The notes beneath the pieces are model-generated. The model saw nothing but the letters and a program-made list of their open reading frames with translations, was not told where the DNA came from and searched no databases. From contig NZ_BHYL01000084.1 of NCBI RefSeq assembly GCF_003851725.1, forward strand, positions 1 through 32,718: a stretch of DNA of 32,718 nucleotides. The letters are read 5' to 3'. The DNA comes from Cellulomonas algicola (GTDB lineage Bacteria; Actinomycetota; Actinomycetes; Actinomycetales; Cellulomonadaceae). Positions 17,289 to 32,718 of this stretch are shown one piece after another; within the stretch, counting starts at the first letter, position 1, and each line of letters begins with the position of its first letter. The position numbers and the translations under genes are program-made.

Positions 17289-18248
17289 TCAGCGGGCTAC
17301 GGGGGCGGTGCGTGCGGCGGCCACCTGGTCGATCGTCGCGGTGACGACCGCGAGGCGGGTGGCGACATCGGCGTCGTGCGGGCGGACGCCCCACTTGAGC
17401 CCGATCCGCGGGACGTCGCCGGCGGCGGCGAGGGTGGCCGCGACCTCCGGCGGGCCGAGCAGCGACGCCGACGACGCGACGAGTGCCGAGTGGTCGCCGC
17501 GCGGTGGGATGTGCATGTCGCCCCAGGCGGCTCCCCACGCGGTGTCGGCGTCGGTCGCGCCGGACAGGACGAGGAGCCGCAGCAGGCCGGCGTCGGCGAC
17601 GGCGCGCGTGTGCGCCACGGGGGTCGCGGTGTCGCGGCCCTCGATCGCGGAGCGTCCCCAGTTGACGACCATGCCGAGCAGGTCGGGTGCGAGCCCGAAC
17701 GACTGCACGAGCGCGACCTCCTCGTCGAGACCGAGGAAGCCCTTGGCGGGCGCCTGCCCGGGCACGAGCGCGTCGCAGTGCTCGACGAGCAGCTCGGCGC
17801 CCGCGAGGTCCCAGCCGAGGATCTCGTCGAGCGAGCGTTCGAACGCGTCCCGCGAGCCGAGGAGCGGGCCGGGCGCGCTGTGCACCTCGACGGCACTGAC
17901 GCGCCGGACTCCGTGCCGGTCGGCGAGGACGTGCGCGAGGTCGCGGGCGCGGGCCACGTCGTCGAGCGCCCGGGCGCGCTGCTCGGGGTCGGTGGACGCG
18001 AGACCGTAGGCCGGGACCTCGGCGCGGCGCGCGGTCATCGTCGGCACGAGCGAGACGACGAGGTCGCGTGCTGCGGGGACGTGCGCGTCGATCCAGGCGG
18101 GGTCGAGCGTGCGGTGCCCCTCGGGCTGGAGCGCGAACTCGAGGCCGGCGAGGTCGAGGTCCGCGACGGCGTCGAAGAACTGGTCCTCGGCGGCGGGTTC
18201 GGTCGGGGCGGTGATGTACGCGGAGACGTACAGGTCGGGCGTCGTCAT
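17289..18248 (-). CDS. DUF4862-like protein of a uronate locus
   Basis: This 319-residue cytoplasmic protein resembles the uncharacterised DUF4862 family (recalled, not searched). It starts YVSAYITAPTEP and has features of a TIM barrel of the xylose-isomerase-like kind: LAGLEFAL early, AVEVHSAP in the middle, LLVEHCDA, MVVNWGRSAIEGRD, GDMHIPPRGDH and a final GLKWGVRP. The Glu, His, Asp and Asn residues at strand ends could bind a metal, as in sugar isomerases and epimerases. GGAGGAC precedes the ATG. It diverges from the TRAP transporter and KduI/IclR/KduD genes across a shared control region, so I infer a role in uronate or keto-deoxy-sugar metabolism; the reaction is unknown. Confidence 0.75.
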   Translation of the reverse strand: MTTPDLYVSAYITAPTEPAAEDQFFDAVADLDLAGLEFALQPEGHRTLDPAWIDAHVPAARDLVVSLVPTMTARRAEVPAYGLASTDPEQRARALDDVARARDLAHVLADRHGVRRVSAVEVHSAPGPLLGSRDAFERSLDEILGWDLAGAELLVEHCDALVPGQAPAKGFLGLDEEVALVQSFGLAPDLLGMVVNWGRSAIEGRDTATPVAHTRAVADAGLLRLLVLSGATDADTAWGAAWGDMHIPPRGDHSALVASSASLLGPPEVAATLAAAGDVPRIGLKWGVRPHDADVATRLAVVTATIDQVAAARTAPVAR

Positions 18249-18401: not shown

Positions 18402-18596
18402 CGAAAGTCTGACATCGTCGTCCTGACTCCCGCAACCACCGGTACCGCACCCCGCAACCGCACCCGCGCCGCACCCGGCCTGCACCCGCCGGCGGCGCCG
18501 CGGGCTGCACCACCCGCACCCCCGGACCATCCCCGCGCACGCCCTGCGAGCGCCCGAGCGCCCACGCCTGCCGTGGGCCCGCACCGAGGAGCACCC

Positions 18597-19637
18597 ATGA
18601 GGCGAAACACCGTCGTTTCCGTCACCGCGCTCACCTTCGCCACCGCGCTCGGCCTCGCCGCCTGCAGCACCGGCGGCACCGGCACCGCCGCCGGCGACAG
18701 CACCGGGTCGTCGGGCGGCCAGGCCGCGACCGTCTTCAAGGTCGCGTTCAACCAGCAGCCCAACCACCCGCAGTTCCGGGCGCTCGACGCGATGGGCGAG
18801 CGCATCAAGGAGCGCACCGACGGCGCGTACGACCTGGAGATCTACCCGAACGAGACGCTCGGCGCGCAGAAGGAGACCATCGAGCTCGTGCAGTCGGGGG
18901 CCGTCGAGTTCTCGGTCGTCGCGAGCCCGCTGATGGAGAACTTCAACCCCGACTTCGTGGTCTTCAACCTGCCGTTCACGTTCGACTCGCAGGACCACCA
19001 GCGCGAGACGACGAACGACCCCGACATCGTGTCGGAGCTGTACTCGTCGCTCGACGACCAGGACCTGCACGTGCTCGCCGCGTTCCACGGCGGGGTCCGG
19101 TCGATGTACAACGGCGAGAAGCCGATCGAGACGCCCGCCGACCTCGAGGGCATGAAGGTCCGCGTCATCGAGTCCGACACCAACATCGAGATGATCCGCC
19201 TCATGGGCGGCACCGGGACGCCCATGGGCATGGGCGAGGTGTACGGCGCGCTCCAGTCGGGCGTCATCGACGCGGCCGAGAACAACGAGCTCACCTACGC
19301 GAACGTCAAGCACGCCGAGGTGGCGCCGTACTTCAGCTACACGCGGCACCTCATGCTGCCCGACTACCTCATCACCAACCCGGCGGTGATGGACGGTCTG
19401 CCCGACGACGTGCGCGCGATCTTCGAGGAGGAGCTCGCCGCCGCGGTCGAGGAGGAGGGCGACCTCTGGAAGACCGAGATCGAGGTCGCCAAGGAGATGG
19501 CGACCGAGGCGGGCGCGCAGTTCAACGAGGTCGACGAGGAGGCGTTCGCGGAGGTCATCCGCCCGCTCACGGAGTCGAAGCTCGACAACGACGTCATCCG
19601 CGAGATCCACGAGAAGGTCCGCGCCGCCGCCGGGTGA
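18597..19637 (+). CDS. dctP: TRAP transporter solute-binding lipoprotein (DctP)
   Basis: This is the substrate-binding subunit of a tripartite sodium-driven importer for organic acids, 346 residues long. A signal sequence with lipobox GLAAC anchors it by a lipid at Cys22 or so; an Ala/Gly/Ser linker follows. The DctP core is clear: HPQFRALDAMGERIKERTDGAYDLEIYPN, then LGAQKETIELVQSGAVEF, and GMKVRVIES with Arg189, the residue that in this family pairs with the substrate carboxylate, then EVYGALQSGVIDAAEN. GAGGAG stands before the ATG. It is the first gene of dctPQM-kduI-iclR-kduD. Given KduI and KduD, a uronate or unsaturated oligouronate is the likely ligand (inference). Confidence 0.93.
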   Translation: MRRNTVVSVTALTFATALGLAACSTGGTGTAAGDSTGSSGGQAATVFKVAFNQQPNHPQFRALDAMGERIKERTDGAYDLEIYPNETLGAQKETIELVQSGAVEFSVVASPLMENFNPDFVVFNLPFTFDSQDHQRETTNDPDIVSELYSSLDDQDLHVLAAFHGGVRSMYNGEKPIETPADLEGMKVRVIESDTNIEMIRLMGGTGTPMGMGEVYGALQSGVIDAAENNELTYANVKHAEVAPYFSYTRHLMLPDYLITNPAVMDGLPDDVRAIFEEELAAAVEEEGDLWKTEIEVAKEMATEAGAQFNEVDEEAFAEVIRPLTESKLDNDVIREIHEKVRAAAG

Positions 19638-19692
19638 CGGCCGCGCACCGGCCTCGCGCTCCCGCGCTCCCCGCACACCGAGAGGTCTGCTG

Positions 19693-20304
19693 ATGACATC
19701 CCCTCCCGCACCCCCGCCGCCACCGGACGACGGCCCCGACGACGGCGGCGACGCCGACGCGCCGCGACCCGTGCCCACCGAGCACGCGCTGCTCACCCGG
19801 TTCAAGACGGCGCTCGACGCCGTGCTCCGGGCGGTCTGCGTGACGCTCTTCGCGCTGCTCGTGCTGCTCGTGACGTGGCAGGTCTTCACGCGCCTCGTGC
19901 TGGACGCCCCGAGCGTCTGGTCCGAGGAGGCCGCCCGGTACGTGTTCGTGTGGGTCAGCCTCATCGGCGTGTCGATCGCGACCGGCGAGAAGGCCGACGT
20001 GGCGATCGACTACTTCGTGCTCAAGGCCCCGCTGGCCGCGCAGCGCGTGCTCGAGATCGTCGCGTACCTCAGCACCCTCACGTTCGCCGTCGTCGTCATG
20101 GTCTGGGGCGGCTGGACCAACGCGCACCAGACGTGGGACCAGGCCAACCCGGTCCTGCCCGTCTCGGCGGGAGCCCTGTACCTCGCGGTCCCGGTCGCGG
20201 GCGTGCTGTTCGCCTTCTACCTGCTCCACCACCTGGCCGGCACGCTCTCGCGCCGGTACGCCGGGGTCGAGCACACCGCACCCGAGGAAGGGGTCGAGCT
20301 GTGA
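19693..20304 (+). CDS. dctQ: TRAP transporter small permease (DctQ)
   Basis: This is the four-helix subunit that joins the binding protein to the large permease; it has 203 residues. A 30-residue Pro/Asp-rich N-terminal tail (including a run of five prolines) is unusual, and is followed by VCVTLFALLVLLVTWQVFTRLVL (helix 1), the DctQ signature WSEEAARYVFVWVSLIGVSIA (helix 2), VLEIVAYLSTLTFAVVVMVWGGW (helix 3) and ALYLAVPVAGVLFAFYLLHHLA (helix 4). Its stop overlaps the GTG start of the large permease gene by four bases, so the two are translationally coupled. Confidence 0.93.
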   Translation: MTSPPAPPPPPDDGPDDGGDADAPRPVPTEHALLTRFKTALDAVLRAVCVTLFALLVLLVTWQVFTRLVLDAPSVWSEEAARYVFVWVSLIGVSIATGEKADVAIDYFVLKAPLAAQRVLEIVAYLSTLTFAVVVMVWGGWTNAHQTWDQANPVLPVSAGALYLAVPVAGVLFAFYLLHHLAGTLSRRYAGVEHTAPEEGVEL

Positions 20305-21608
20305 CCGACGTCGCGCTCGTGACGGCCGTCCTGTTCGGCGGCATGGCCGTGCTCATGGCGATCGGTGCGCCGGTCAGCATCAGCATCGGCCTGCCGTCGG
20401 CGGTCTCGCTCGTCCTCGTCCTGGGCCTCGAGGACGGCGCCGCGACGTCCGCGCAGCGGATGTTCAACGGCGTCAACTCGTTCGCCCTGCTCGCGATCCC
20501 GTTCTTCATCCTCGCCGGCGGGATCATGAACAACGGCGGCATCGCGACGCGGCTCATCAACCTCGCGAAGGTGCTCGTCGGCCGCACGCCCGCCCCGCTC
20601 GCGCAGACGAACGTCCTGGCGAACATGCTGTTCGGGGCGATCAGCGGGTCGGCGATCGCGGCCGCGGCGGCGGTCGGCACGACGATGTCGCCGATGCAGG
20701 CCCGCGAGAGGTACGACCGGGCGTTCACCGCCGCGACGAACGTCGCCTCCGCGCCCAGCGGCATGCTCATCCCGCCGAGCAACCTCATAATCATCTACGC
20801 GATGGCCAGCGGCAGCGCCTCGGTCGGCGCGCTGTTCCTCGCCGGGTACGTGCCGGGCGTCCTGTGGGGCGTCGCGTGCATGCTCGTCGTCGCGTGGTAC
20901 GCCCGTCGGCACCCCGAGCTCCGCGAGCCGGTCCGGGCGGACCTGCGTCAGATCGGGACCGTCTTCGTGCAGGCGCTGCCGTCCCTGGCGCTCGTGGTCG
21001 TCGTCATCGGCGGCATCGTCGGCGGCTTCTTCACCGCGACCGAGGGGTCGGCGGTCGCGGTGGTCGCGTCGCTCGTCCTGTCGTTCCTCTACCGGGCGAT
21101 CCGCGTGCGGGACCTGCCGCGCATCCTGTACTCCGCGGCGCGCACGAGCTCGGTCGTGATCTTCCTCATCGGCGTCTCGTCGATCATGTCGTTCGTCATG
21201 AGCTTCACGCGGATGCCGCAGCTCATCGCCGAGGGCCTGTTCGGGTGGACCGACAGCAAGGTCGTCGTGCTGCTCGTGATGATGCTGGTGCTGCTCGTCA
21301 TCGGCATCCCGCTCGACGCGACGCCCGCCGTGCTGATCTTCACGCCGATCTTCCTACCGATCGCGATGCAGTACGGGATCGACCCCGTGCACTTCGGCAT
21401 CATGCTCACCTTCAACCTCTGCATCGCGATCATCTCGCCCCCGTCGGCGCCCGTGCTGTTCGTCGGCGCGCAGGTCGCCGGCGTGCGGATCGAGCCCGTC
21501 ATCCGCCACCTCATGCCGTTCTTCCTCGCGCTCGTGGCGGTGCTCTTCCTCGTCGTCTTCGTCCCCGGGCTGTCGCTGTGGCTGCCCGGCCTCGTCGGCC
21601 TGCTCTGA
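20301..21608 (+). CDS. dctM: TRAP transporter large permease (DctM)
   Basis: This is the 435-residue transport subunit, with about 12 hydrophobic segments. DctM signatures are present: MAIGAPVSISIGLPSAVSL near the start, FALLAIPFFILAGGIMNNGGI, GAISGSAIAAAAAVGTTMSPMQ, then SAPSGMLIPPSNLIIIYAM and, in the second half, GIPLDATPAVLIFTPIFLPI and CIAIISPPSAPVLFVG. The layout and length are normal. The GTG start at 20301 overlaps the dctQ stop (GTGA). The protein belongs to the DctM type used with separate DctQ subunits, not the fused TAXI type. Confidence 0.95.
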   Translation: MTDVALVTAVLFGGMAVLMAIGAPVSISIGLPSAVSLVLVLGLEDGAATSAQRMFNGVNSFALLAIPFFILAGGIMNNGGIATRLINLAKVLVGRTPAPLAQTNVLANMLFGAISGSAIAAAAAVGTTMSPMQARERYDRAFTAATNVASAPSGMLIPPSNLIIIYAMASGSASVGALFLAGYVPGVLWGVACMLVVAWYARRHPELREPVRADLRQIGTVFVQALPSLALVVVVIGGIVGGFFTATEGSAVAVVASLVLSFLYRAIRVRDLPRILYSAARTSSVVIFLIGVSSIMSFVMSFTRMPQLIAEGLFGWTDSKVVVLLVMMLVLLVIGIPLDATPAVLIFTPIFLPIAMQYGIDPVHFGIMLTFNLCIAIISPPSAPVLFVGAQVAGVRIEPVIRHLMPFFLALVAVLFLVVFVPGLSLWLPGLVGLL

Positions 21609-21651
21609 GCCGGCCCCACCCCACCCGCACCCCGACCCGGAAGGTTTCCCG

Positions 21652-22491
21652 ATGGATCTGCGGTACGCCACCAGCCCCGAGCACGTGCGCGGCATGGACA
21701 CCGAGGAGCTGCGGCGACGGTTCCTCGTCCAGGACCTGTTCGCCGACGACGAGGCCCGCGCCGTGCAGACGCACCACGACCGCGTCGTGCTCGTCGGCGT
21801 CGTCCCGGCCACCCGCCCGGTCAGCCTGCCGACGTTCGCCGAGCTCCGGTCCGCGCACTTCTTCGAGCGGCGCGAGGCGGGCGTCGTCAACGTCGGCGGG
21901 CCGGGCACGGTCACCGTCGACGGCGAGACGCACACCGTCGACCGGGGCGCGTTCCTGTACGTGGGACGCGGTGCGCGCGACGTCGTGCTCGCGTCGACGG
22001 AGCCGACGGGGTCCGACGGCCCGGCCGCGTTCTACCTGTTCTCCGCACCGGCCCACACGTCCTACCCGACGACGCTCGTCGGGCCCGACGGCGGGACGGT
22101 GCGCGAGCTCGGCGACGCCCTCACGTCGAACCGTCGCACGCTGCGCCAGGTGATCCACGAGGGCGGCGTGCGCAGCTGCCAGGTCGTCATGGGCATGACG
22201 ACGCTGCACCCCGGCAGCATGTGGAACACCATGCCGGCCCACACCCACGACCGGCGGACGGAGGTCTACCTGTACGTCGACGTGCCCGACGACGCCCGCG
22301 TCGTGCACCTCCTCGGCGAGCCCGCCGAGACCCGGCACCTGCTGGTCGCGAACCGCGAGGCCGTCGTCTCGCCGAGCTGGTCCGTCCACTCGGGCGTCGG
22401 CACCGCGAGCTACGCCTTCGTCTGGGCCATGGCAGGCGAGAATCAGTCGTTCGACGACATGGATGGGCACCCCATCACCGACCTGCGCTAG
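21652..22491 (+). CDS. kduI: 5-dehydro-4-deoxy-D-glucuronate isomerase (KduI)
   Basis: KduI turns 5-keto-4-deoxyuronate, from breakdown of pectin or other polyuronides, into 2,5-diketo-3-deoxygluconate. The 279-residue protein spans the family's full length and starts MDLRYATSPEHVRGMDTEELR, as usual. The zinc ligands are visible as MPAHTHDRRTE (His197, His199, Glu204) and WSVHSGVG (His246), one position off those recalled for E. coli. GGENQSFDDMD-like ending (AGENQSFDDMD) is typical. It lies 43 bp after dctM and 27 bp before the regulator gene, in one operon. Confidence 0.95.
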   Translation: MDLRYATSPEHVRGMDTEELRRRFLVQDLFADDEARAVQTHHDRVVLVGVVPATRPVSLPTFAELRSAHFFERREAGVVNVGGPGTVTVDGETHTVDRGAFLYVGRGARDVVLASTEPTGSDGPAAFYLFSAPAHTSYPTTLVGPDGGTVRELGDALTSNRRTLRQVIHEGGVRSCQVVMGMTTLHPGSMWNTMPAHTHDRRTEVYLYVDVPDDARVVHLLGEPAETRHLLVANREAVVSPSWSVHSGVGTASYAFVWAMAGENQSFDDMDGHPITDLR

Positions 22492-22518
22492 CGCGCCCAC
22501 GACGACAGGTGGACGGAC

Positions 22519-23337
22519 ATGGTCTCCGGCTCGACGCCAGCACCCCGCACACGAGCGGGCGACGAGCCCGGCCGGCCCGGTCCGCAGCCGGAGGCGGCGC
22601 CCGGCGCGAGCGAGAAGACGCTGCTCGTGCTCGAGGCCGCGATGGCGCACGGCCGGTTCACCGACGTCGTCGAGGCCACGGGGCTCGCGAAGGCCACCAC
22701 CCACCGGATCCTCGCGACGCTCATCGAGCGCCAGTTCGTCGCGGTCGCCGCCGACGGCACGTACCTGCCCGGTCCGAAGATCCTGTCGCTCGCCGGGCAG
22801 GCCATGGCGCGCATCGACATCACGGCGATCGCGCAGCCGTTCGTCGACGAGCTCGTCGAGAAGACGCACTGCACCGTCCACGTCGGGGTCAAGAACGGCG
22901 ACGAGATCGTCTACCTGATCCGCGCCGACTCCGACAAGCCGTACCTCATGCCGTCGCGGGTCGGCCTCGCGATCCCCCTGCACACGTCGGGGATCGGGAA
23001 GGTCGTCCTCGGCGGGTTCACCGACCAAGGGCTCGAGCGGTTCGTCGAGCGGGTGGGCCTGCCACGACGGACCGCGAACACGATCACCACGCTGGACGGC
23101 CTGCGGGCCGAGGTCGCCGAGGTCCGGCGGCTCGGGTACGCGCTCGACCGCGAGGAGAACGTGCCGGGTGTCGCGTGCGTCGCGGCCCCGATCTACGACA
23201 CCACGCACACCGTCACCTACGGGATCAGCATCTCGACGCTGACCCTCGAGCACAGCATCGACCAGATCGAGGCGATGGCCCCCCTGGCCGTCGAGGCCGC
23301 GCAGAAGATCTCCGCGGCGCTCGGTCACACGGGCTGA
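22519..23337 (+). CDS. IclR-family regulator, KdgR-type by context
   Basis: This 272-residue regulator has a 30-residue Pro-rich extension, a winged helix-turn-helix at about 33-90 (SEKTLLVLEAAMAHGRFTDVVEATGLAKATTHRIL) and an IclR effector domain at about 100-268 (AIPLHTSGIGKVVLGGF, LGYALDREENVPGVACVAAPI, YGISISTLTLEH). All parts of the family are present. It lies between kduI and kduD in the operon that it probably represses through the palindrome at 18387-18401. The likely effector is 2-keto-3-deoxygluconate or a related intermediate, as for KdgR in enterobacteria; this is inference. Confidence 0.9.
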   Translation: MVSGSTPAPRTRAGDEPGRPGPQPEAAPGASEKTLLVLEAAMAHGRFTDVVEATGLAKATTHRILATLIERQFVAVAADGTYLPGPKILSLAGQAMARIDITAIAQPFVDELVEKTHCTVHVGVKNGDEIVYLIRADSDKPYLMPSRVGLAIPLHTSGIGKVVLGGFTDQGLERFVERVGLPRRTANTITTLDGLRAEVAEVRRLGYALDREENVPGVACVAAPIYDTTHTVTYGISISTLTLEHSIDQIEAMAPLAVEAAQKISAALGHTG

Positions 23338-24911: not shown

Positions 24912-25583
24912 TCAGGGGGCGAGAGAGCGTCGGGCTTCCTCGAGCGTCTCGCTCCGCACCGGGTGGTCGACGAGCTGCTGGACGACCACGCCGGGTCCGT
25001 AGCGCGCGTCGTCGTCGGCGGGGATGCCCAGCGCGGCCAGGTAGCGCAGCAGCAGCGGCCGGTCGAACCGGTCGCGGACCCGGCGCGCCGTGTACCGGTC
25101 CGTGTCCTCGAAGTCGAACGGGTCGCCGAGCGCGTACCACGACCACCGATCGTCGGCCGCGTCCGCGGTGAGCGTCCGCACGTGCCGCGACGGCACTTGC
25201 CCGCCGGGGCCGTGCACCCAGAGCTGTGTCGACTGGTGCCCGGGTCCGTGCCGCGGCGCGTGCACGGCCACGACGCACCGGGCGTCGAGCCGCGCCGCGA
25301 GGGCATGTGCGGATGCGGTCGGGTCGCCGCCCTCCGTCCCGTTGTTCAGGTACGCCGACCAGCGGTCCCCGCACGGGAGGACGAGCTCGCGCGTCCACGG
25401 CGACTCGAACGGGGCGAGGTCCTCGAGCACGTCGGGGTACGCGCGTGGCGACGACACCACGGTCCGGTGCCCGAGCCCGGTGCGCCACCGGACGAGCTCG
25501 TCGACGAGGCCGTCCGCGGGGACGTCGACGAACTGCACGGACCAGCCGATCGGGCTGGCCGCGCCGCCCAGGAGGATCGTCAC
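24912..25583 (-). CDS. Unrecognised cytoplasmic protein
   Basis: I do not recognise this 223-residue protein. It has no signal peptide or membrane segment. Visible features are a start of VTILLGGAASPIGWSVQFVDVP, an acidic and Trp/Tyr-rich middle (DDRWSWYALGDPFDFEDTDRYTAR) and a C-terminal helix-rich part ending DHPVRSETLEEARRSLAP. The many exposed charged residues suggest a soluble protein. The GTG at 25583 was chosen because AT-poor intergenic sequence begins there and GGTACGGTCGGG precedes it, though that is a weak ribosome site. It diverges from the phosphonate operon and shares its control region, so it may be co-regulated, but nothing in it points to phosphonate chemistry. Confidence 0.65.
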   Translation of the reverse strand: MTILLGGAASPIGWSVQFVDVPADGLVDELVRWRTGLGHRTVVSSPRAYPDVLEDLAPFESPWTRELVLPCGDRWSAYLNNGTEGGDPTASAHALAARLDARCVVAVHAPRHGPGHQSTQLWVHGPGGQVPSRHVRTLTADAADDRWSWYALGDPFDFEDTDRYTARRVRDRFDRPLLLRYLAALGIPADDDARYGPGVVVQQLVDHPVRSETLEEARRSLAP

Positions 25584-25648
25584 GCGCCCGACCGTACCGG
25601 CCGCCGTGGGTCGTCGGGCGGGCCGGTGCGAGTCGGGAGCGCACCATC

Positions 25649-25676
25649 TGGACGGCCGTCCACGCGGAGGTGGACG
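25649..25676. promoter_or_regulatory. Interleaved TGGACG palindromes before the phosphonate operon
   Basis: TGGACGGCCGTCCA (25649-25662) is a perfect 14-bp palindrome. Its right arm, CGTCCAC (25657-25663), also pairs with GTGGACG (25670-25676) across six bases. The three TGGACG half-sites end 16 bp before the -35 element, a place suited to an activator or repressor of the divergent genes. The binding protein is unknown. Confidence 0.5.
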
Positions 25677-25691
25677 CGACATGACCCTTTC

Positions 25692-25721
25692 TTGCCACTT
25701 GTCCGGATTGTTCGCTAACGT
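25692..25721 (+). promoter_or_regulatory. Promoter of the phosphonate operon
   Basis: TTGCCA (25692-25697), an 18-bp spacer and TAACGT (25716-25721) form a good promoter in an AT-richer patch (about 25680-25720) that stands out from its surroundings. The start would be near 25728, giving a leader of about 73 nt to the cupin gene. Confidence 0.65.
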
Positions 25722-25800
25722 GCCGTGACGCCACGCGGTGCCGGTGCATTTCCCGGGCCGACGGGCGTCCTTTCTTTCGCACGGCAGGGGGAGCACGAGC

Positions 25801-26166
25801 GTGCACATCGACAGGAACTCGACCGACAAGTACAAGCCGGAGTACGACGTCCTCGTCCGGCGCTTCGCGGAGACCTTCGCGCAGACGAGCCCGGGCAAGG
25901 AGGCCATGGGCGCGGCCATCTCGGTGTTCGAGCCGGGCGAGACGATCCGCGAGCACGTCAACAAGCCCGAGGTCGAGGAGGTCTTCCTCGTCCTCGACGG
26001 CGACGTCGACTTCTACCTCGACGGCCGGCGCGAGCGCATCACGACCGGCGACATGGGGCTCGCGCACGTCGGCCAGGCGCACGCGTTCACCAACGCGGGC
26101 ACCGGGACGGCCCGGCTGCTGAGCATCTGGTGGCGCGCGGTGCGCGAGCCCGCGCCCGTGGCCTGA
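25801..26166 (+). CDS. Small cupin-domain protein
   Basis: This single-domain cupin of 121 residues has motif 1 as GETIREHVNKPEVEEVFLVLDGDV (with His-Val-Asn where HxH is usual, then Glu) and motif 2 as GDMGLAHVGQAHAFTNAG with His, so a metal site is probable but altered. The GTG at 25801 follows GGGGGAG at good spacing; in-frame upstream starts lack one. The MetRS-like gene starts five bases after its stop, so the two are co-expressed. Phosphonate pathways use cupin-fold dioxygenases and epoxidases (HEPD, HppE), but those are longer and two-domain or carry a helix-turn-helix, so this one may be an isomerase, a binding protein or an oxygenase subunit. Role unassigned. Confidence 0.85.
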   Translation: MHIDRNSTDKYKPEYDVLVRRFAETFAQTSPGKEAMGAAISVFEPGETIREHVNKPEVEEVFLVLDGDVDFYLDGRRERITTGDMGLAHVGQAHAFTNAGTGTARLLSIWWRAVREPAPVA

Positions 26167-26171
26167 CGGCG

Positions 26172-27527
26172 ATGGTGCGCCCCGCCCCGACGGTCGTCTT
26201 CACCCCGCCACCCACCCCGAACGGTGCCCTGCACGTCGGCCACGTCGGTGGTCCGTACCTGCGGGCCGACCTGTACGTGCGCCTCGTGCGGCTGCTCGAG
26301 GACCGCGAGATCCGGCACGTCAGCCACGTCGACACGTACCAGTCGTACGTCGCGAAGAAGGCCGTGGAGGTGGGTGCGGAGCCCGACGCGCTGTCCCGCG
26401 AGTACACCGGCCGGATCCGCGCGGACTTCGACGCCTACGCCCTGAGCCACGACGCGTTCGGCGACAACCGCGATCCCGAGTACCTGCGCTTCCTGCGCGA
26501 GGGCGTGCAGGCGCTCACCGACGTCGTGACGGTCGTCGAGCGCGAGGTGCCGCGGTGCGAGGGCTGCGGGCGCACGCAGCTCGAGGCGTACGCGCGCTCG
26601 GCGTGCACCGGCTGCCTGCACGACGCCTACCTCAACGTGTGCGAGAACTGCTCGCTCCCGCAGCAGGTCGACGACGCGCTCGGCCTGCTGTGCACGCAGT
26701 GCCGCACGGCGGCGGGCGGCACGACGACGGCCCGCTTCCTGTCGTTCGACGCCGGCGCCGTCGCGGCGGTCGAGGACACGATGCGGCACCGGCACGGGGC
26801 GTCCCGTCGGGCGTCGGCGCTGTTCGACCGGCTCGGCCCGCACCTCGCGCTGTGGCAGTTCGAGTCGCCGTACGGCATCGCCGTCGACGACTCCGGGCTG
26901 GTGCTGAACCCGTGGGTCGAGATCTTCTTCCACCACACGTGGTGCCTGCTCCAGGAATGCGGCGTCGACACCCGGCTGCCGTTTTCCGAGGCCGTGGCCG
27001 AGCTGAATCGTCGGGACCCCGACGTGATCTATTTCTTCGGCGTCGACAACACCTACTACTACGCGTTCCTGTTCACCGCGCTGGCGCAGGCGCTCGTCAT
27101 TCGTCCGATGGTGCCGTCGCGCGTGAAGATCAACCATTTCATGCACCTGCGCGGCGCGAAGATCTCGTCGAGCCGGGGCAACGTCGTGTGGGCGGACGAG
27201 CTCGTCGGGACCGCTCCGGTCGAGGTGCTGCGCACCCGCCTCGCCCGGTCGTGCCCCGAGTACGCGCCGCGCGAGCTGGCCGACGACGGGCCGCCGCTCA
27301 GCCCGGCACCCCCGGTCGGCGTCCCACCGGCCGGTGAGGGCCCGCGCGAGCTCGACGTCGTCCGTGCGCGGCTCGCGGACCTCGCCGCGATCGACGCGTT
27401 CTCGGTCGAGCGCCTCGTCGACGTCCTCGACAAGGGGCGGGAGCGCGCCCGCGCCGTCGGTGGCGGCGACGCGGACGCGATCGACGACTACCTCGCGCAC
27501 GTCTGCCGCGAGCTCCAGCTCGCGTAG
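26172..27527 (+). CDS. MetRS-like class I synthetase without a normal anticodon domain
   Basis: This 451-residue protein has the class I aminoacyl-tRNA synthetase catalytic fold and is closest to methionyl-tRNA synthetase. HVGH at 21-24 is the HIGH motif (in TPPPTPNGALHVGHVGG) and KISSS at 330-334 the KMSKS motif. The inserted zinc region has four CxxC pairs (Cys129/132, 145/148, 157/160, 174/177), as in two-knuckle MetRS. After KISSS only about 117 residues remain, with a Pro-rich linker (SPAPPVGVPPAGEGP) and a short helical end, so a full anticodon-binding domain is missing. Some codons near 26940-27130 are less GC-rich than the neighbours. Family knowledge: similar trimmed synthetases, such as MshC, join an amino acid to an amine. 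In this cluster the amine could be 2-aminoethylphosphonate (inference). Confidence 0.88.
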   Translation: MVRPAPTVVFTPPPTPNGALHVGHVGGPYLRADLYVRLVRLLEDREIRHVSHVDTYQSYVAKKAVEVGAEPDALSREYTGRIRADFDAYALSHDAFGDNRDPEYLRFLREGVQALTDVVTVVEREVPRCEGCGRTQLEAYARSACTGCLHDAYLNVCENCSLPQQVDDALGLLCTQCRTAAGGTTTARFLSFDAGAVAAVEDTMRHRHGASRRASALFDRLGPHLALWQFESPYGIAVDDSGLVLNPWVEIFFHHTWCLLQECGVDTRLPFSEAVAELNRRDPDVIYFFGVDNTYYYAFLFTALAQALVIRPMVPSRVKINHFMHLRGAKISSSRGNVVWADELVGTAPVEVLRTRLARSCPEYAPRELADDGPPLSPAPPVGVPPAGEGPRELDVVRARLADLAAIDAFSVERLVDVLDKGRERARAVGGGDADAIDDYLAHVCRELQLA

Positions 27528-27529
27528 CA

Positions 27530-27610
27530 GCCGCACACCCGGGCACTGCCGCCGCACACGCGGGCACTGCCGCCCACGCACGGGCACCGCTGCCCACGCA
27601 CGAGCACCGC
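27530..27610. repeat. 20-21-bp tandem repeat between synthetase-like gene and pepM
   Basis: Four imperfect copies of CGCCCACGCACGGGCACCGC run from 27530 to 27610 (27530-27549, 27550-27570, 27571-27590, 27591-27610). The whole 207-bp gap has no gene. A clear ribosome binding site (CAGGAGG, 27718-27724) ends it before the pepM gene, and no promoter is obvious, so the repeats may lie within a transcribed leader. Confidence 0.65.
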
Positions 27611-27734
27611 GACCACGCACGACGGTCGCGACCCAGCACCGCACCGCACCCGGCGACCGTCGGCGCGCGCCGCCCCGGCGGCACCGCGCCCTGCCGCCGT
27701 CCGAGCACGCCACTCCTCAGGAGGTTCGTCCGCC

Positions 27735-28679
27735 ATGACCCGCACCGACCACCCCGCCGTCCCCGTCCCCGCCCGCCGGACCACGCTGCGCGAGCTGTTC
27801 GACGCGCCCGGCCTGGTGCGGATCGTCGGCGCGCACAACCCGCTCGGCGCCCGGCTCGCGGAGCGCGCCGGCTTCGACGGCGTGTGGGCGAGCGGCCTGG
27901 AGGTCTCGGCGTCGCAGGGCGTGCCGGACGCCGACATCCTCACGATGAGCGACCTGCTGAGCGTGTCCGCGTCGATGGCGTCGGCGGTGCGCATCCCCGT
28001 CGTCTCCGACTGCGACGCGGGCTACGGCAACGTCCCGCAGGTCATGCACATGGTGCGCCGGTACGAGGCGGCCGGGATCTCGGCGGTGACGATCGAGGAC
28101 AAGCTCTTCCCGAAGATGAACAGCTTCGTCGCGAGCAACCAGAGCCTGCTCCCGGTCGAGGCGTTCTGCGGCAAGATCTCCGCGGCCGCCGCGGCGCGGA
28201 CGGGCGACCTGCTCGTGATCGCGCGCATCGAGGCGCTCATCGCGGGGCACGACCTGGACGAGGCGCTGTCCCGGGCGCACGCGTACGAGGCGGCGGGCGC
28301 GGACGCGGTGCTCATCCACGCCAAGGACCGGTCGCCCGACGTCGTGCTCGAGTTCCTCGAGCGCTGGTCGTCACCGCTGCCCGTCGTGGTGGTGCCGACG
28401 ACGTACCACACCGTCACCGCGACGGAGCTCGAGGACGCGGGCGCGAAGATGGTCGTGTACGCGAACCACGGGCTGCGCGCGCTCATCACGGCGGTGTCGG
28501 AGACCTTCTCGTCGATCCTGCGCGACGGTCGCACGTCGCGGTTCGAGGACGACATCGCGACCGTCGAGGACGTCTTCGAGCTCCAGGGCCTGCGCGACAT
28601 GCTCGACGAGGAGCGCCGGCACGACGCCGCGGGTGTCGAGCACGCGCTCGCCGCCGCACCGCTGGCGAACCGCTCGTGA
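27735..28679 (+). CDS. aepX: Phosphoenolpyruvate phosphomutase
   Basis: PEP mutase makes the first carbon-phosphorus bond of nearly all known phosphonates by turning phosphoenolpyruvate into phosphonopyruvate. The 314-residue protein has the signature EDK-x5-NS (Glu121, Asp122, Lys123, then Asn129 and Ser130, as EDKLFPKMNS), which separates true mutases from isocitrate and methylisocitrate lyases and from oxaloacetate hydrolases. VSDCDAGYGN holds the Mg-binding Asp residues, and the N-terminal GFDGVWASGLEVSAS fits the family. CAGGAGG stands ten bases before the ATG. Its stop overlaps the next start by four bases. pepM is another symbol for it. Very secure. Confidence 0.96.
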   Translation: MTRTDHPAVPVPARRTTLRELFDAPGLVRIVGAHNPLGARLAERAGFDGVWASGLEVSASQGVPDADILTMSDLLSVSASMASAVRIPVVSDCDAGYGNVPQVMHMVRRYEAAGISAVTIEDKLFPKMNSFVASNQSLLPVEAFCGKISAAAAARTGDLLVIARIEALIAGHDLDEALSRAHAYEAAGADAVLIHAKDRSPDVVLEFLERWSSPLPVVVVPTTYHTVTATELEDAGAKMVVYANHGLRALITAVSETFSSILRDGRTSRFEDDIATVEDVFELQGLRDMLDEERRHDAAGVEHALAAAPLANRS

Positions 28680-29818
28680 CGACGCTCGTCGACGCGCCCG
28701 CGGTGCTCGAGGCCGACGCGTTCCTCGACGTCCTCGCGGCGCGCGGGCTCGGACCGGTCGTCGGGGTGCCGTGCTCGTTCCTGGCCCCCGCGATCCGGCG
28801 CATGGAGGACGGCGCGGACGTCGAGTACCTGGCCGCGGCGAACGAGGGCGAGGCGGTCGCGATCGCCGTCGGTGCACGGCTGGGCGGGCGGCGGCCCGTC
28901 GTCGTCATGCAGAACTCCGGGCTCGGCAACGCCGTGAACCCGCTGACGTCGCTCGCGAGCACGCTCGAGGTGCCCGTGCTGCTGCTCGTCACGTGGCGCG
29001 GCGAGCCGGGCTTCCCGGACGAGCCGCAGCACCGGCTCATGGGCGAGATCACGCCCGACCTGCTCGACGCGATGGGCGTGCGGCACGAGATCCTCCCGTC
29101 CGACCCGGTGGTGCTCGGCGAGCGCGTCGACGACGCGCTGCGGCACCTGGACGCGACCGGTCGGCCGTTCGCGTTCGTCGTGCGCAAGGGCACGTTCGAG
29201 AAGGCCGTGCCGCGACCGCCCGCGGACGACGACGGCGGCGCCGGCCGTCCGCCGCTGCGCGCCGAGGTGCTGGGCGCGGTGGTCGACGCCGTCGGGCCCG
29301 AGACCGTGCTCGTCGCGACGACCGGCTACACCGCGCGCGAGCTCGCCGCCGGGTGGGACCGCCCGGAGAACCTGTACGTCGTCGGGTCGATGGGGTGCGC
29401 GTCGAGCGTCGCGCTGGGCCTCGCGACCGCCGCGCCCGACCGGCGGGTCGTGGTGCTCGACGGCGACGGCGCCGCGCTCATGCGGCTCGAGGCGCTCGCG
29501 ACGATCGGCGCGGTGCAGCCGCCGAACCTCGTGCACCTGGTCCTCGACAACGGGTCGTACGAGTCGACCGGGGGGCAGCGCACGTCGTCGGCGCACGTCG
29601 ACCTCGTGGGGGTCGCGCGGGCCTGCGGGTACGGCGACGCCCGGAGTGCGACGACCCCGTCCGCGGTCGCGGAGGCCGTGCGCGGCGCGACCGGCACGAC
29701 GTTCGTGCACGTGCCCGTGAGTCCCGGCACCGACCCGGACCTGCCGCGGCCGTCGATCCAGCCGCCCGACGCCGCCCGTCGCCTCGCGGCCGCGCTCGCG
29801 TCGGAGGTGCGGCCGTGA
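28676..29818 (+). CDS. aepY: Phosphonopyruvate decarboxylase
   Basis: This thiamine-diphosphate enzyme of 380 residues turns phosphonopyruvate into phosphonoacetaldehyde and so makes the unfavourable mutase step irreversible. GVPCSFLAPAIRRM and AANEGEAVAIAVGARLGG (with the catalytic Glu) and MQNSGLGNAVNPLTSL are typical of the enzyme's N-terminal half; the cofactor-binding half has GSMGCASSVALGLA and GDGAALMRLEAL (GDG from 263), then LDNGSYESTGGQ. Both halves are intact. The GTG start at 28676 overlaps the aepX stop (GTGA), and its own stop overlaps the next gene the same way. ppd is another symbol. Confidence 0.95.
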   Translation: MTTLVDAPAVLEADAFLDVLAARGLGPVVGVPCSFLAPAIRRMEDGADVEYLAAANEGEAVAIAVGARLGGRRPVVVMQNSGLGNAVNPLTSLASTLEVPVLLLVTWRGEPGFPDEPQHRLMGEITPDLLDAMGVRHEILPSDPVVLGERVDDALRHLDATGRPFAFVVRKGTFEKAVPRPPADDDGGAGRPPLRAEVLGAVVDAVGPETVLVATTGYTARELAAGWDRPENLYVVGSMGCASSVALGLATAAPDRRVVVLDGDGAALMRLEALATIGAVQPPNLVHLVLDNGSYESTGGQRTSSAHVDLVGVARACGYGDARSATTPSAVAEAVRGATGTTFVHVPVSPGTDPDLPRPSIQPPDAARRLAAALASEVRP

Positions 29819-30978
29819 CGCGCGTCGTGCTGCTGAACCCGGGGCCGGTGATGACGGCCGACGAGGTCCGCGAGGCCCTCGCCGGTCCGGACCTGTGCCA
29901 CCGGGAGGCCGACTTCGGCGACCTGCTGGCGCGCGTGCGGCACGAGCTCACCGACCTGTGCGGCGGCACCGGCTCGCACGGCACCGTCGTCCTCACGTCG
30001 TCCGGCACGGGCGCGGTCGAGGCGGCCGTCGCGAGCGCCGTACCGCCCGACGGCGTCGTCCTCACGCTCGAGAACGGGCACTACGGCGAGCGCATGCGCC
30101 AGATCGCGCAGTCGCACGGCATCCCCGTCCGCCGGTTCGAGGTGCCGTGGGGACGCCCGCTCGACGCGCGCGACGTCGCGGCCCGGCTCGCCGCGGAGCC
30201 GCAGGTCACGCACGTGACGCTCGTGCACCACGAGACGAGCACGGCCATGCTCAACGATCTGCCCGGCATCGCGCGCGTCGTCGCCGACGCGGGCCGGTCG
30301 CTGGTCGTCGACGCCGTGAGCAGCGTCGGGTGCGAGGAGGTCGACGTCGCGGCGCACGGCGTCGACTGGCTCGCGGGGACGTCGAACAAGTGCCTCGAGG
30401 GCATGCCCGGGCTGTCGTTCGTCACCGCGCGCGCCGACCTGCTCGACGCGCTCGACGGGCGCCCCGGACGCGGGTACACGGTCGACCTCGGCCGGCACCA
30501 CCGGGCCCAGGCGCGCGCGGGCGTCCCGGCCTTCACGCCCGCCGTCCCCACGTTCTACGCCCTCGAGGTCGCGCTGCGCCGGCTGCGCACGGAGACCGTG
30601 GCCGGTCGACGCGCCCGCTACGGGCGGCTCGCGGACCTGCTGCGCGACGGGCTCGCCGAGCGGGGGTTCGCGGTGCACCTCGACCCCGCCGAGCGTGCGT
30701 CCTCGCTCACGTCGCTCGACCTGCCGCCCGGCCTCGGGTACGCCGAGCTGCACGCCGGCCTGCGGGCGCGCGGCTACGTCGTCTACGCGTCGCAGGAGCA
30801 CCTGCGCGACCAGGCGTTCCGGGTCGCGACGATGGGCACGCTGACCGAGGACGAGGTCCGCGCGTTCCTGGCCGCGCTCGACGAGGTCGTCGCCGCCACG
30901 CCGCGCACGGGGCCTCGGCACGAGCGCGAACGACGGCACACGGGTCCGTCGCACGCCGTCGCGCCGGTGGCGCCGTGA
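29815..30978 (+). CDS. aepZ: 2-aminoethylphosphonate-forming class-V transaminase
   Basis: This PLP transaminase of 387 residues most likely converts phosphonoacetaldehyde to 2-aminoethylphosphonate, the usual third step. It resembles 2-aminoethylphosphonate-pyruvate transaminase (PhnW): LLNPGPVMTADEVREAL opening, SSGTGAVEAAVAS, VHHETSTAMLNDLPGIA, VDAVSSVGCEEVD and GTSNKCLEGMPG with PLP-Lys192. PhnW often works in catabolism, but with aepX and aepY just before it the biosynthetic direction is much more likely. The last 25 residues are a basic, low-complexity tail. The start overlaps the aepY stop, and its stop overlaps the next start, each by GTGA. Confidence 0.9.
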   Translation: MTRVVLLNPGPVMTADEVREALAGPDLCHREADFGDLLARVRHELTDLCGGTGSHGTVVLTSSGTGAVEAAVASAVPPDGVVLTLENGHYGERMRQIAQSHGIPVRRFEVPWGRPLDARDVAARLAAEPQVTHVTLVHHETSTAMLNDLPGIARVVADAGRSLVVDAVSSVGCEEVDVAAHGVDWLAGTSNKCLEGMPGLSFVTARADLLDALDGRPGRGYTVDLGRHHRAQARAGVPAFTPAVPTFYALEVALRRLRTETVAGRRARYGRLADLLRDGLAERGFAVHLDPAERASSLTSLDLPPGLGYAELHAGLRARGYVVYASQEHLRDQAFRVATMGTLTEDEVRAFLAALDEVVAATPRTGPRHERERRHTGPSHAVAPVAP

Positions 30979-32718
30979 CGCGTCCCCTGCGCGTCGCCGT
31001 CGTCGGGGGAGGCCCCCGGGCGACGTACGCCCTCGAACGGCTCAGCGCCCACGCAGACGCCCTGACGGTCGGCCGGACGCTCGAGGTGCACCTCTTCGAG
31101 CGGACCGGGCGGTTCGGCGCCGGGTCCGTGCACGACCCGCGGCAGCCGCTCACCGCGGTCCTCAACCGCACCGCGGACGAGGTGTCGTTCGCGGCCGACG
31201 AGACCGTGACCGGCGCGGGTCCGTTGCGCCCGCCCACCGAGCGTCCGACGCTCGCGCGGTGGATCGCGCAGCGGTCGGACGGTGTGCCCGAAGAGCCTGC
31301 GGCGTGGCCGCCGCGCGCCGTGCACGGCGCCGCGCTCGAGGAGCGGCTCGCCCGGTTCGCCGCCGACCTGGAGCGCACCGGGCGCGCGCACGTGCACCGG
31401 CACGCCGTCGAGGTCGTCGAGCTCCGCGAGGTTCGGCGCGCCGACCGCCTGCCCGGCGACCGCCTGCCCGGCGACCGCCTGCCCGGCGCCGGCGGGCGCG
31501 TGGCCGCCAGCGGCGGACCCGTCGACGAGACCGCCCACGGTGGCGGCACCGCCCCCGGGTGGCCTGACGGCCCGCTCGACGTCGTGGCCGCCGACGGGCG
31601 CACGTGGACGGTCGACGACGTCCTGCTCGTGACCGGCCACGGCTCGCCCCGACCCGCGCACCCGGCGGGAGACCCGTGCGCCGGACCCGGCGATCACGCG
31701 GCCGTGCACGTCACCCGCGCCTACCCGCTGGACGGCCGCGGCTCGGTCGCCGACGTGCCCGCCGGGTCCCGCGTCGCGCTCGTCGGCACGGGCATGACGG
31801 CCCTCGACGTGCTGATCGCGCTCACGGCGGGGCGCGGCGGCCGGTTCGCGCGTGCACGCGGCGGGCGGCTCACGTACCTGCGGTCCGGCGCGGAGCCGTC
31901 GGCGATCCACTGCACGAGCGGTTCGGGGGTGTTCCCGTACGCGCGGCCCGCGGTGCTGTCGACCGTGAGCCCGTTCGTCGACACGCGCGGCGGACGTTTC
32001 CTCCGGCACGACGTCCTGCCGCGGCTGCGCCGGTCGCGCGGCGGCCCGCGCGAGGGCGGCGGGGACGGCACGGGAGCGCTCGACGTCGAGCGCGACCTGC
32101 TGCCGCTGATCGTCCTCGAGATGGCCTTCCAGCACGACGCGACGCTGCGCGGCCTCGACGCCGCGCGCGACGCGGCGACCCGCGTGCAGGACGCCGTCGA
32201 CGCGTTCCTGGACGGCGGCCCCACCGGCCGGACGGGCGACGACGGCCGGCCCGACGCGCTCGCCCGGCTCCTGCTCGCGCACACCGGCGACGTCGACGAG
32301 GCCGACCGGTTCGACTGGGACGCGCTCGTCGACCCGCTCGCGACCGGCGACGACCTGGCCGACGTGATCGACCTCGACGTGCAGCGCGCGCACCAGGGCG
32401 TCGGCGTGAGCCCGCACCTCACTGCCCGCAACGGCGTGTGGCGGGACCTGCGCGGCGTCATCTCGGCGGCCGTCGACGACGGCGGGCTCACGGCCACGTC
32501 GCACCGACGGTTCGTCGAGCGCGTGGTGCCGTGGCACAACCGGTTCGCGAACGGGGCGTCTCCCGAGGTGATGGCGCGGGTCGCGGCACTGCTGCGGTCC
32601 GGCCTCGTGCGCGTCGACCGTGACGCTCCCGCCGACCGCGACGCCCCCGCGGCCCGCGTCGACGCCCGCGACCTCGGGCCGACACGCGGGCGTCGCGGGC
32701 CGTGCGCCGTGCCGGCGG
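30975..32718 (+). CDS. FAD/NAD(P)-binding oxidoreductase (partial at 3' end)
   Basis: The reading frame begins with GTG overlapping the aepZ stop and stays open past the window edge, so at least 581 residues are seen and the C-terminus is missing. VAVVGGGPRATYALERL at 6-22 is a dinucleotide-binding motif; LFERTGRFGAGSVHD fits the FAD-binding end of the first fold, and VALVGTGMTALDVLIAL at about 268 is a second nucleotide-binding motif. The architecture suggests the NAD_binding_9-type flavoproteins, whose members are mostly uncharacterised and partly resemble N-hydroxylating monooxygenases. A DRLPG triplet repeat lies at 157-171. Its place at the end of the phosphonate operon implies a tailoring oxidation or N-hydroxylation; the reaction is unknown. 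Confidence 0.85.
   Translation, partial: MTRPLRVAVVGGGPRATYALERLSAHADALTVGRTLEVHLFERTGRFGAGSVHDPRQPLTAVLNRTADEVSFAADETVTGAGPLRPPTERPTLARWIAQRSDGVPEEPAAWPPRAVHGAALEERLARFAADLERTGRAHVHRHAVEVVELREVRRADRLPGDRLPGDRLPGAGGRVAASGGPVDETAHGGGTAPGWPDGPLDVVAADGRTWTVDDVLLVTGHGSPRPAHPAGDPCAGPGDHAAVHVTRAYPLDGRGSVADVPAGSRVALVGTGMTALDVLIALTAGRGGRFARARGGRLTYLRSGAEPSAIHCTSGSGVFPYARPAVLSTVSPFVDTRGGRFLRHDVLPRLRRSRGGPREGGGDGTGALDVERDLLPLIVLEMAFQHDATLRGLDAARDAATRVQDAVDAFLDGGPTGRTGDDGRPDALARLLLAHTGDVDEADRFDWDALVDPLATGDDLADVIDLDVQRAHQGVGVSPHLTARNGVWRDLRGVISAAVDDGGLTATSHRRFVERVVPWHNRFANGASPEVMARVAALLRSGLVRVDRDAPADRDAPAARVDARDLGPTRGRRGPCAVPA
31442..31486 (+). repeat. Three exact 15-bp repeats inside the flavoprotein gene
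   Basis: CGACCGCCTGCCCGG occurs three times without change at 31442-31456, 31457-31471 and 31472-31486. In frame it reads DRLPG three times (residues 157-171), in what is probably a surface loop. Exact copies point to a recent expansion by slippage. Confidence 0.85.

Follow-up and report, generated by a model that had tools for sequence, protein, structure and literature searches.

The 32,718-nucleotide contig NZ_BHYL01000084.1 of Cellulomonas algicola, referred to below as the window, carries at its 3' end six plus-strand genes. They code, in this order, for a standalone cupin, a protein similar to methionyl-tRNA synthetase (MetRS-like), AepX, AepY, AepZ and a flavin adenine dinucleotide (FAD) protein, whose Pfam domains are Cupin_2, tRNA-synt_1g, PEP_mutase, TPP_enzyme_N/C, Aminotran_5 and NAD_binding_9, respectively. 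The window is one whole contig of a draft genome (4.5 Mb in 535 contigs) and the open reading frame (ORF) of the FAD protein is still open at the contig end. Three GTGA overlaps (aepX/aepY, aepY/aepZ and aepZ/FAD protein gene) tie the last four genes together. The cupin and MetRS-like genes are spaced by 5 bp, and 207 bp separate the MetRS-like gene from aepX. This gap holds an imperfect tandem repeat with a 20-bp unit and about 4 copies (27530..27621, no strand). The GC content at third codon positions is 0.95–0.98 in all six frames. A preliminary description of this DNA had listed aepX with its EDK-x5-NS motif, aepY, aepZ and a flavoprotein gene, which motif and Pfam searches bear out, and the GTGA joins among them, which are read in the sequence. 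The cupin and MetRS-like genes lie before aepX as it had placed them, at 25738 or 25801–26166 and 26172–27527. The good promoter that it had assigned to this pair was not recovered: no sigma-70-like site is present in 25500–27800, in a scan that does not cover other promoter types.

The aepX gene (27735..28679, + strand) codes for a phosphoenolpyruvate (PEP) mutase whose EDKLFPKMNS motif fits the EDKx5NS signature of these enzymes. Four PEP-mutase-like matches are found in the genome, and AepX is the only one with EDKx5NS, the other three being weaker and devoid of it. AepX matches the PEP mutase 5unc with an E-value of 2e-126, versus 5.5e-74 for phosphonopyruvate hydrolase, and scores 294.6 bits with the NCBIfam model TIGR02320, below the cut-off of 319.55. 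The phosphonopyruvate decarboxylase AepY (28676..29818, + strand) scores 399.3 bits with TIGR03297, over the cut-off of 312.5, and the 2-aminoethylphosphonate (AEP) aminotransferase AepZ (29815..30978, + strand; PF00266) scores 335 bits with TIGR03301, under the cut-off of 360.8. Conversion of PEP to AEP is predicted for the three proteins together, with good support from homology.

The FAD/NAD(P) flavoprotein gene (30975..32718, + strand; PF13454) lies directly 3' of aepZ and runs for 581 codons without a stop to the contig end. Its product has a sole PDB match at E ≤ 1, namely 8cp2 (E 1.7e-16), an aspartate N-hydroxylase that shares 54% identity with FzmM (PMC10404684). The same source describes PcxL, which oxidises AEP to the oxime 2-hydroxyiminoethylphosphonate, and a WC-3744 protein 58% identical to PcxL (WP_051704824.1). 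The nearest relatives of the window flavoprotein bear the name Cellulomonas. The WC-3744 protein is presumably HpxL. In a midpoint-rooted tree of 52 rows the window protein stands beside P0046 and P0074 in a 43-row aepX-linked family, which is split with 100% support from the NAD_binding_9 proteins of Pseudomonas, Nocardia and the locus L128. Relatives of flavoprotein P0056 (E 1e-60) occur at 20 loci in 19 of 394 Streptomycetaceae genomes. Within the approximately 20 kb examined per locus, the PEP-mutase motif is present in 14 of the 20, and cupin plus MetRS-like genes in a single one, that of Actinacidiphila glaucinigra. By family, linkage and gene order, the flavoprotein is read as a putative PcxL/HpxL-like AEP N-oxidase.

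The Cellulomonas relatives P0039–P0046 (953–1009 residues) feature the flavoprotein followed by a fused PF02273 domain, by eye an alpha/beta hydrolase. The fusion is present in P0040, and the window contig stops before the corresponding point. When a full-length relative was used as query for this carboxyl terminus against the present draft and the C. septica genome (G013), only the window contig was returned. Note that the window flavoprotein has, relative to P0040, an insert at 31445–31554 with the repeated peptide RLPGD; the sequence on its two sides shows 94% and 93% identity.

The MetRS-like gene (26172..27527, + strand) codes for 451 residues that match PF09334 only. The protein has HIGH-like and KMSKS-like motifs and a zinc knuckle, has no anticodon domain and scores far under every cut-off of the NCBIfam MetRS models; the housekeeping MetRS of the genome is coded on a different contig. 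The lysine of the KMSKS-like motif (K330) is kept in 33 of 33 sequences (the window and 32 of the 37 collected MetRS-like proteins). The nearest named locus is that of C. septica (L015), whose MetRS-like protein is 97% identical. A 60-row tree splits 55 MetRS-like proteins with 100% SH-aLRT support from five canonical MetRS, the genome's own included. The MetRS-like side holds the window as well as L077, a Rhodococcus locus with an RHS1-like cupin. The window protein falls within a separate 25-row clade (100% support) that is not close to any characterised enzyme. This tree was obtained by a quick method after exclusion of 37 named near-duplicates, of L076, of matches under ~250 residues and of 18 of the 37 collected proteins; it has several long branches and retains two near-identical pairs. 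In characterised systems an N-hydroxyamino acid is first esterified with an amino acid by a MetRS-like domain or protein, and the ester then becomes a hydrazine through rearrangement by a zinc cupin (PMC8664883). Both partners may be standalone proteins (PMC8664883, PMC11705231), and the hydrazine synthetases with amino acid or amine partners include a pair from Cellulomonas flavigena (PMC11705231). An analogous role, ester formation between an amino acid and an N-hydroxyamine, is predicted by homology for the MetRS-like protein of the window.

The standalone cupin gene (25801..26166, + strand; PF07883) has an ORF that opens at a GTG codon at 25738, the start at 25801 being more likely. Its product appears to be a homologue of the N-N forming cupins of RHS1 and PyrN: it matches 5uqp, the RHS1 structure, in a PDB sequence search (E 2.5e-5) with the catalytic glutamate aligned. 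A cupin profile built from the sequences of the window and A. glaucinigra and run through four iterations, for which the E-value of the window itself is not independent, matches a cupin in 68 of 69 MetRS-like loci (all except L078), in four of four additional loci from Cellulomonas and in the window. The catalytic glutamate (RHS1 E69, PyrN E56) and the carboxyl-terminal histidine (RHS1 H103, PyrN H90) are invariant in these 73 cupins, residue numbers of RHS1 being transferred via the 5uqp alignment. The cupin of Rhodococcus wratislaviensis L077 is by eye almost identical to RHS1. An AlphaFold model of the window cupin (pLDDT 91) adopts the cupin fold. In Foldseek, 5uqp ranks 46th by E-value (1.2 Å root-mean-square deviation over 78 columns, 32% identity) and lies outside the best 50 VIA rows; on this model the fold match alone does not discriminate among cupins.

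The six genes are found in identical order in A. glaucinigra (L016), which provides the recurrence elsewhere that had been called for, also there with no known product. This locus carries in addition genes for a nonribosomal peptide synthetase, the E1 and E2 subunits of a 2-oxoacid dehydrogenase, a methyltransferase, a D-amino acid oxidase (DAO) family oxidase and a TauD protein. The TauD protein (18893–19966) is 63–75% identical to those of L110, L111, L113, L114 and L116, five loci with aepX and flavoprotein genes and no cupin or MetRS-like gene, a likeness that hints at a hydroxylated AEP precursor. L016 is the single flanking locus scanned for surroundings made only of phosphonolipid or glycan genes, and that arrangement was not seen. 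Indirect signs of co-occurrence come from contig sizes. Five of 37 MetRS-like proteins share the exact size of their longest contig with an aepX protein (mean of 0.07 in controls with sizes shifted by 1–60) and seven of 37 with a flavoprotein (control mean 0.03), and one contig (259605) is shared by all three. Each protein represents a cluster in these coincidences, and contig 86714 is listed under two different strain names (NPDC059385, NPDC059447). The coincidences suggest further loci with the combination beyond the window and L016.

The system of the window is rare, its own genome being the sole match at E 1e-50 among 396 genomes from the phylum. With P0009 as query at E 1e-60, two of 394 Streptomycetaceae genomes were matched, that of L016 and that of L128. 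The latter locus, like the related loci L017 and L018, harbours cupin and MetRS-like genes and shows no aepX match in the DNA examined, so that the wider MetRS-like clade is not all of the AEP type; the three are perhaps another hydrazine-type cluster using a different amine. By eye, L017 and L018 show genes for an FAD protein, a GNAT protein and a methyltransferase, and L018, which begins near a contig end, also for a transporter. The query P0012 at E 1e-60 matched none of 348 Pseudomonas genomes, a set without positive control in which this result shows little. Many Pseudomonas MetRS-like loci (L029 and L035 among the examples) have a NAD_binding_9 flavoprotein gene about 6.5 kb downstream.

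A pathway can be proposed on the basis of the established gene content, gene order, family placement and conserved catalytic residues, all substrates and the product being inferred. A cupin together with a MetRS-like protein that has no anticodon domain is the known hydrazine synthetase pair, and AEP would therefore be N-hydroxylated, esterified and rearranged to a hydrazino acid. AEP formed from PEP by AepX, AepY and AepZ would be N-hydroxylated by the flavoprotein with NADPH and O2, as its family and linkage suggest. The MetRS-like protein would then adenylate an amino acid and load it onto the hydroxyl of N-hydroxy-AEP to yield an O-aminoacyl hydroxylamine, a step assigned by homology and modelled on PyrN, which acts in this way with N6-hydroxylysine. 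Rearrangement of the ester by the cupin, with cleavage of N-O and formation of N-N, would give an N-(2-phosphonoethyl)hydrazino acid. Later genes beyond the contig might complete the product, which is a guess. That the cluster makes an N-N bonded aminophosphonate is likely. The fuller reading is held with a probability of roughly 0.6: a branch of hydrazine synthetases, present in actinobacteria and possibly in other phyla, would use N-hydroxy-AEP instead of N-hydroxylysine or N-hydroxyornithine to make N-(phosphonoethyl)hydrazino acids, with a remodelled metal site in the cupin. The AEP pathway with uncommon partner genes and no matching known product was rightly recognised in the preliminary description, which offered no mechanism for these partners. 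The cupin and MetRS-like genes are not a miscellaneous tailoring set and resemble a hydrazine synthetase pair, and the flavoprotein falls in an aepX-linked family read as PcxL/HpxL-like AEP N-oxidases.

Several observations weigh against this assignment, chief among them a changed metal motif in the cupin and the possibility that the oxidase goes past the hydroxylamine. Among the sequence matches of the cupin, 5uqp is narrowly outranked by three chains of quercetin dioxygenase (E 7.2e-6 to 8.6e-6). In the cupins of the window, L015 and L016 the second histidine of the HxH motif is replaced by asparagine, the resulting HxN, HVN in the window, being accompanied by a two-residue insertion. The counterpart of this asparagine, RHS1 H65 (PyrN H52), is required for zinc. 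The first histidine, the glutamate and the carboxyl-terminal histidine are kept as putative zinc ligands of the window cupin, whose metal site may differ from that of RHS1 and PyrN. PcxL proceeds to an oxime (PMC10404684), whereas a hydrazine synthetase requires a hydroxylamine, and the hydroxylated partners reported in the accessible text of PMC11705231 comprise amino acids and a small number of amines, with no phosphonates. Six of the 20 Streptomycetaceae flavoprotein loci (L115 and L118–L122) have no PEP-mutase motif in the DNA examined. Lastly, the complete six-gene order is seen in DNA at two flanked copies only, the window and L016.

The altered HxH motif, the quercetin dioxygenases at the top of the sequence matches and the oxime formed by PcxL (PMC10404684) would all agree with a cupin that does not form N-N bonds and a MetRS-like protein by which AEP, its oxime or its hydroxylamine is turned into an amide or ester, in the manner of a phosphonopeptide. 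MetRS paralogues were indeed originally predicted to be peptide ligases (PMC2922099). Such a conjugate is improbable: the catalytic glutamate of N-N forming cupins is retained in 73 of 73 sequences, and a cupin accompanies the MetRS-like protein in 68 of 69 loci, the RHS1-type L077 among them. It is likewise doubtful that AEP is a mere nitrogen carrier, comparable to lysine in the s56-p1 pathway, with a phosphonoethyl hydrazine that would be split oxidatively, the hydrazino acid going to a phosphorus-free product and AepZ re-aminating phosphonoacetaldehyde. The cleavage of the hydrazine adduct in the s56-p1 pathway is carried out by Spb39, a homologue of D-amino acid oxidase (PMC7347517). A DAO-family oxidase is coded in L016, and weak homologues of it (about 24–29% identity) are found directly 3' of the MetRS-like gene in 18 of 30 Pseudomonas loci and in L023. 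The cluster of the window shows no DAO gene, however, a whole de novo AEP pathway is expensive for a recyclable carrier, and the similarity of the L016 TauD to those of the five aepX and flavoprotein loci points to tailoring of the phosphonate itself. Two independent neighbouring pathways, a cupin/MetRS pair acting on a lysine- or ornithine-derived hydroxylamine beside an AEP-oxime pathway, would account for the 207-bp gap with its tandem repeat and for the aepX-aepY-aepZ-flavoprotein module devoid of cupin and MetRS genes in L104–L108, but are highly unlikely given that both modules are joined in identical order in A. glaucinigra and Cellulomonas, that the MetRS-like/aepX contig-size coincidences recur and that none of the six cluster proteins matches the lysine/ornithine N-hydroxylase family in Pfam.

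Upstream of the cluster, genes for a TRAP-type solute-binding protein, KduI and an IclR regulator (18573–23337) adjoin a DUF4862 gene (17289–18248, - strand). They probably form a locus for uptake and catabolism of sugar acids, and look unrelated to the six genes.

If N-hydroxy-AEP is the substrate of the cupin/MetRS-like pair, hydrazine synthetases extend to a phosphonate hydroxylamine, and the formation of C-P and N-N bonds, two rare chemistries, is united by one enzyme logic. The combination of cupin, MetRS-like and aepX genes would then be a genome-mining marker for a class of phosphonates of which no description was found in the open-licence literature searched. The key steps involve three proteins (flavoprotein, MetRS-like and cupin) and AEP, and are testable in the laboratory. 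In the open-licence literature searched, which lacks most subscription papers, no report of a phosphonate from a cupin/MetRS pair was found. Look-ups in three papers on phosphonates (PMC13302981, PMC12723261 and PMC12871164) returned no mention of hydrazine or cupin in the main text, and those in PMC8664883 and PMC2922099 none of phosphonates.

The cluster shares features with several known systems. In common with PyrN, Spb40, Tri28, RHS1 with its MetRS and the C. flavigena pair D5UDN8/D5UDN9, it has a cupin/MetRS-like pair with the catalytic glutamate and the KMSKS-like lysine, and a predicted flavin N-hydroxylase accompanies the pair as in cupin/MetRS hydrazine synthetases. It differs from them by the placement of its MetRS-like protein in a 25-row clade of its own, by the HxN motif and two-residue insertion of its cupin and by AEP as predicted amine partner. 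The phosphonocystoximate and hydroxynitrilaphos systems (PcxL/HpxL) also combine an AEP pathway with a flavoprotein, which is read as the same N-oxidase family. The aepX-aepY-aepZ-flavoprotein order is found in L104–L108 as well, loci assumed to be of the PcxL/HpxL kind. As a difference from the window, the 19 other Streptomycetaceae flavoprotein loci are devoid of cupin and MetRS-like genes over the 20 kb examined. Fosfazinomycin likewise unites a phosphonate and an N-N bond in one natural product, but its N-N route consists in oxidation of aspartate by FzmM, followed by FzmL, via nitrous acid (PMC11705231, PMC10404684). The FzmM relative 8cp2 matches the window flavoprotein, yet the closest relatives of the latter are in the aepX-linked family, and no lyase partner of an FzmM-type route is present by Pfam among the six cluster proteins, nor is a lysine N6-monooxygenase domain. 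Finally, the MtRS-paralogue operons (PMC2922099) have, like the window, a MetRS paralogue and a standalone cupin; in the window, the NAD_binding_9 flavoprotein and aepXYZ replace the lysine N6-monooxygenase of those operons.

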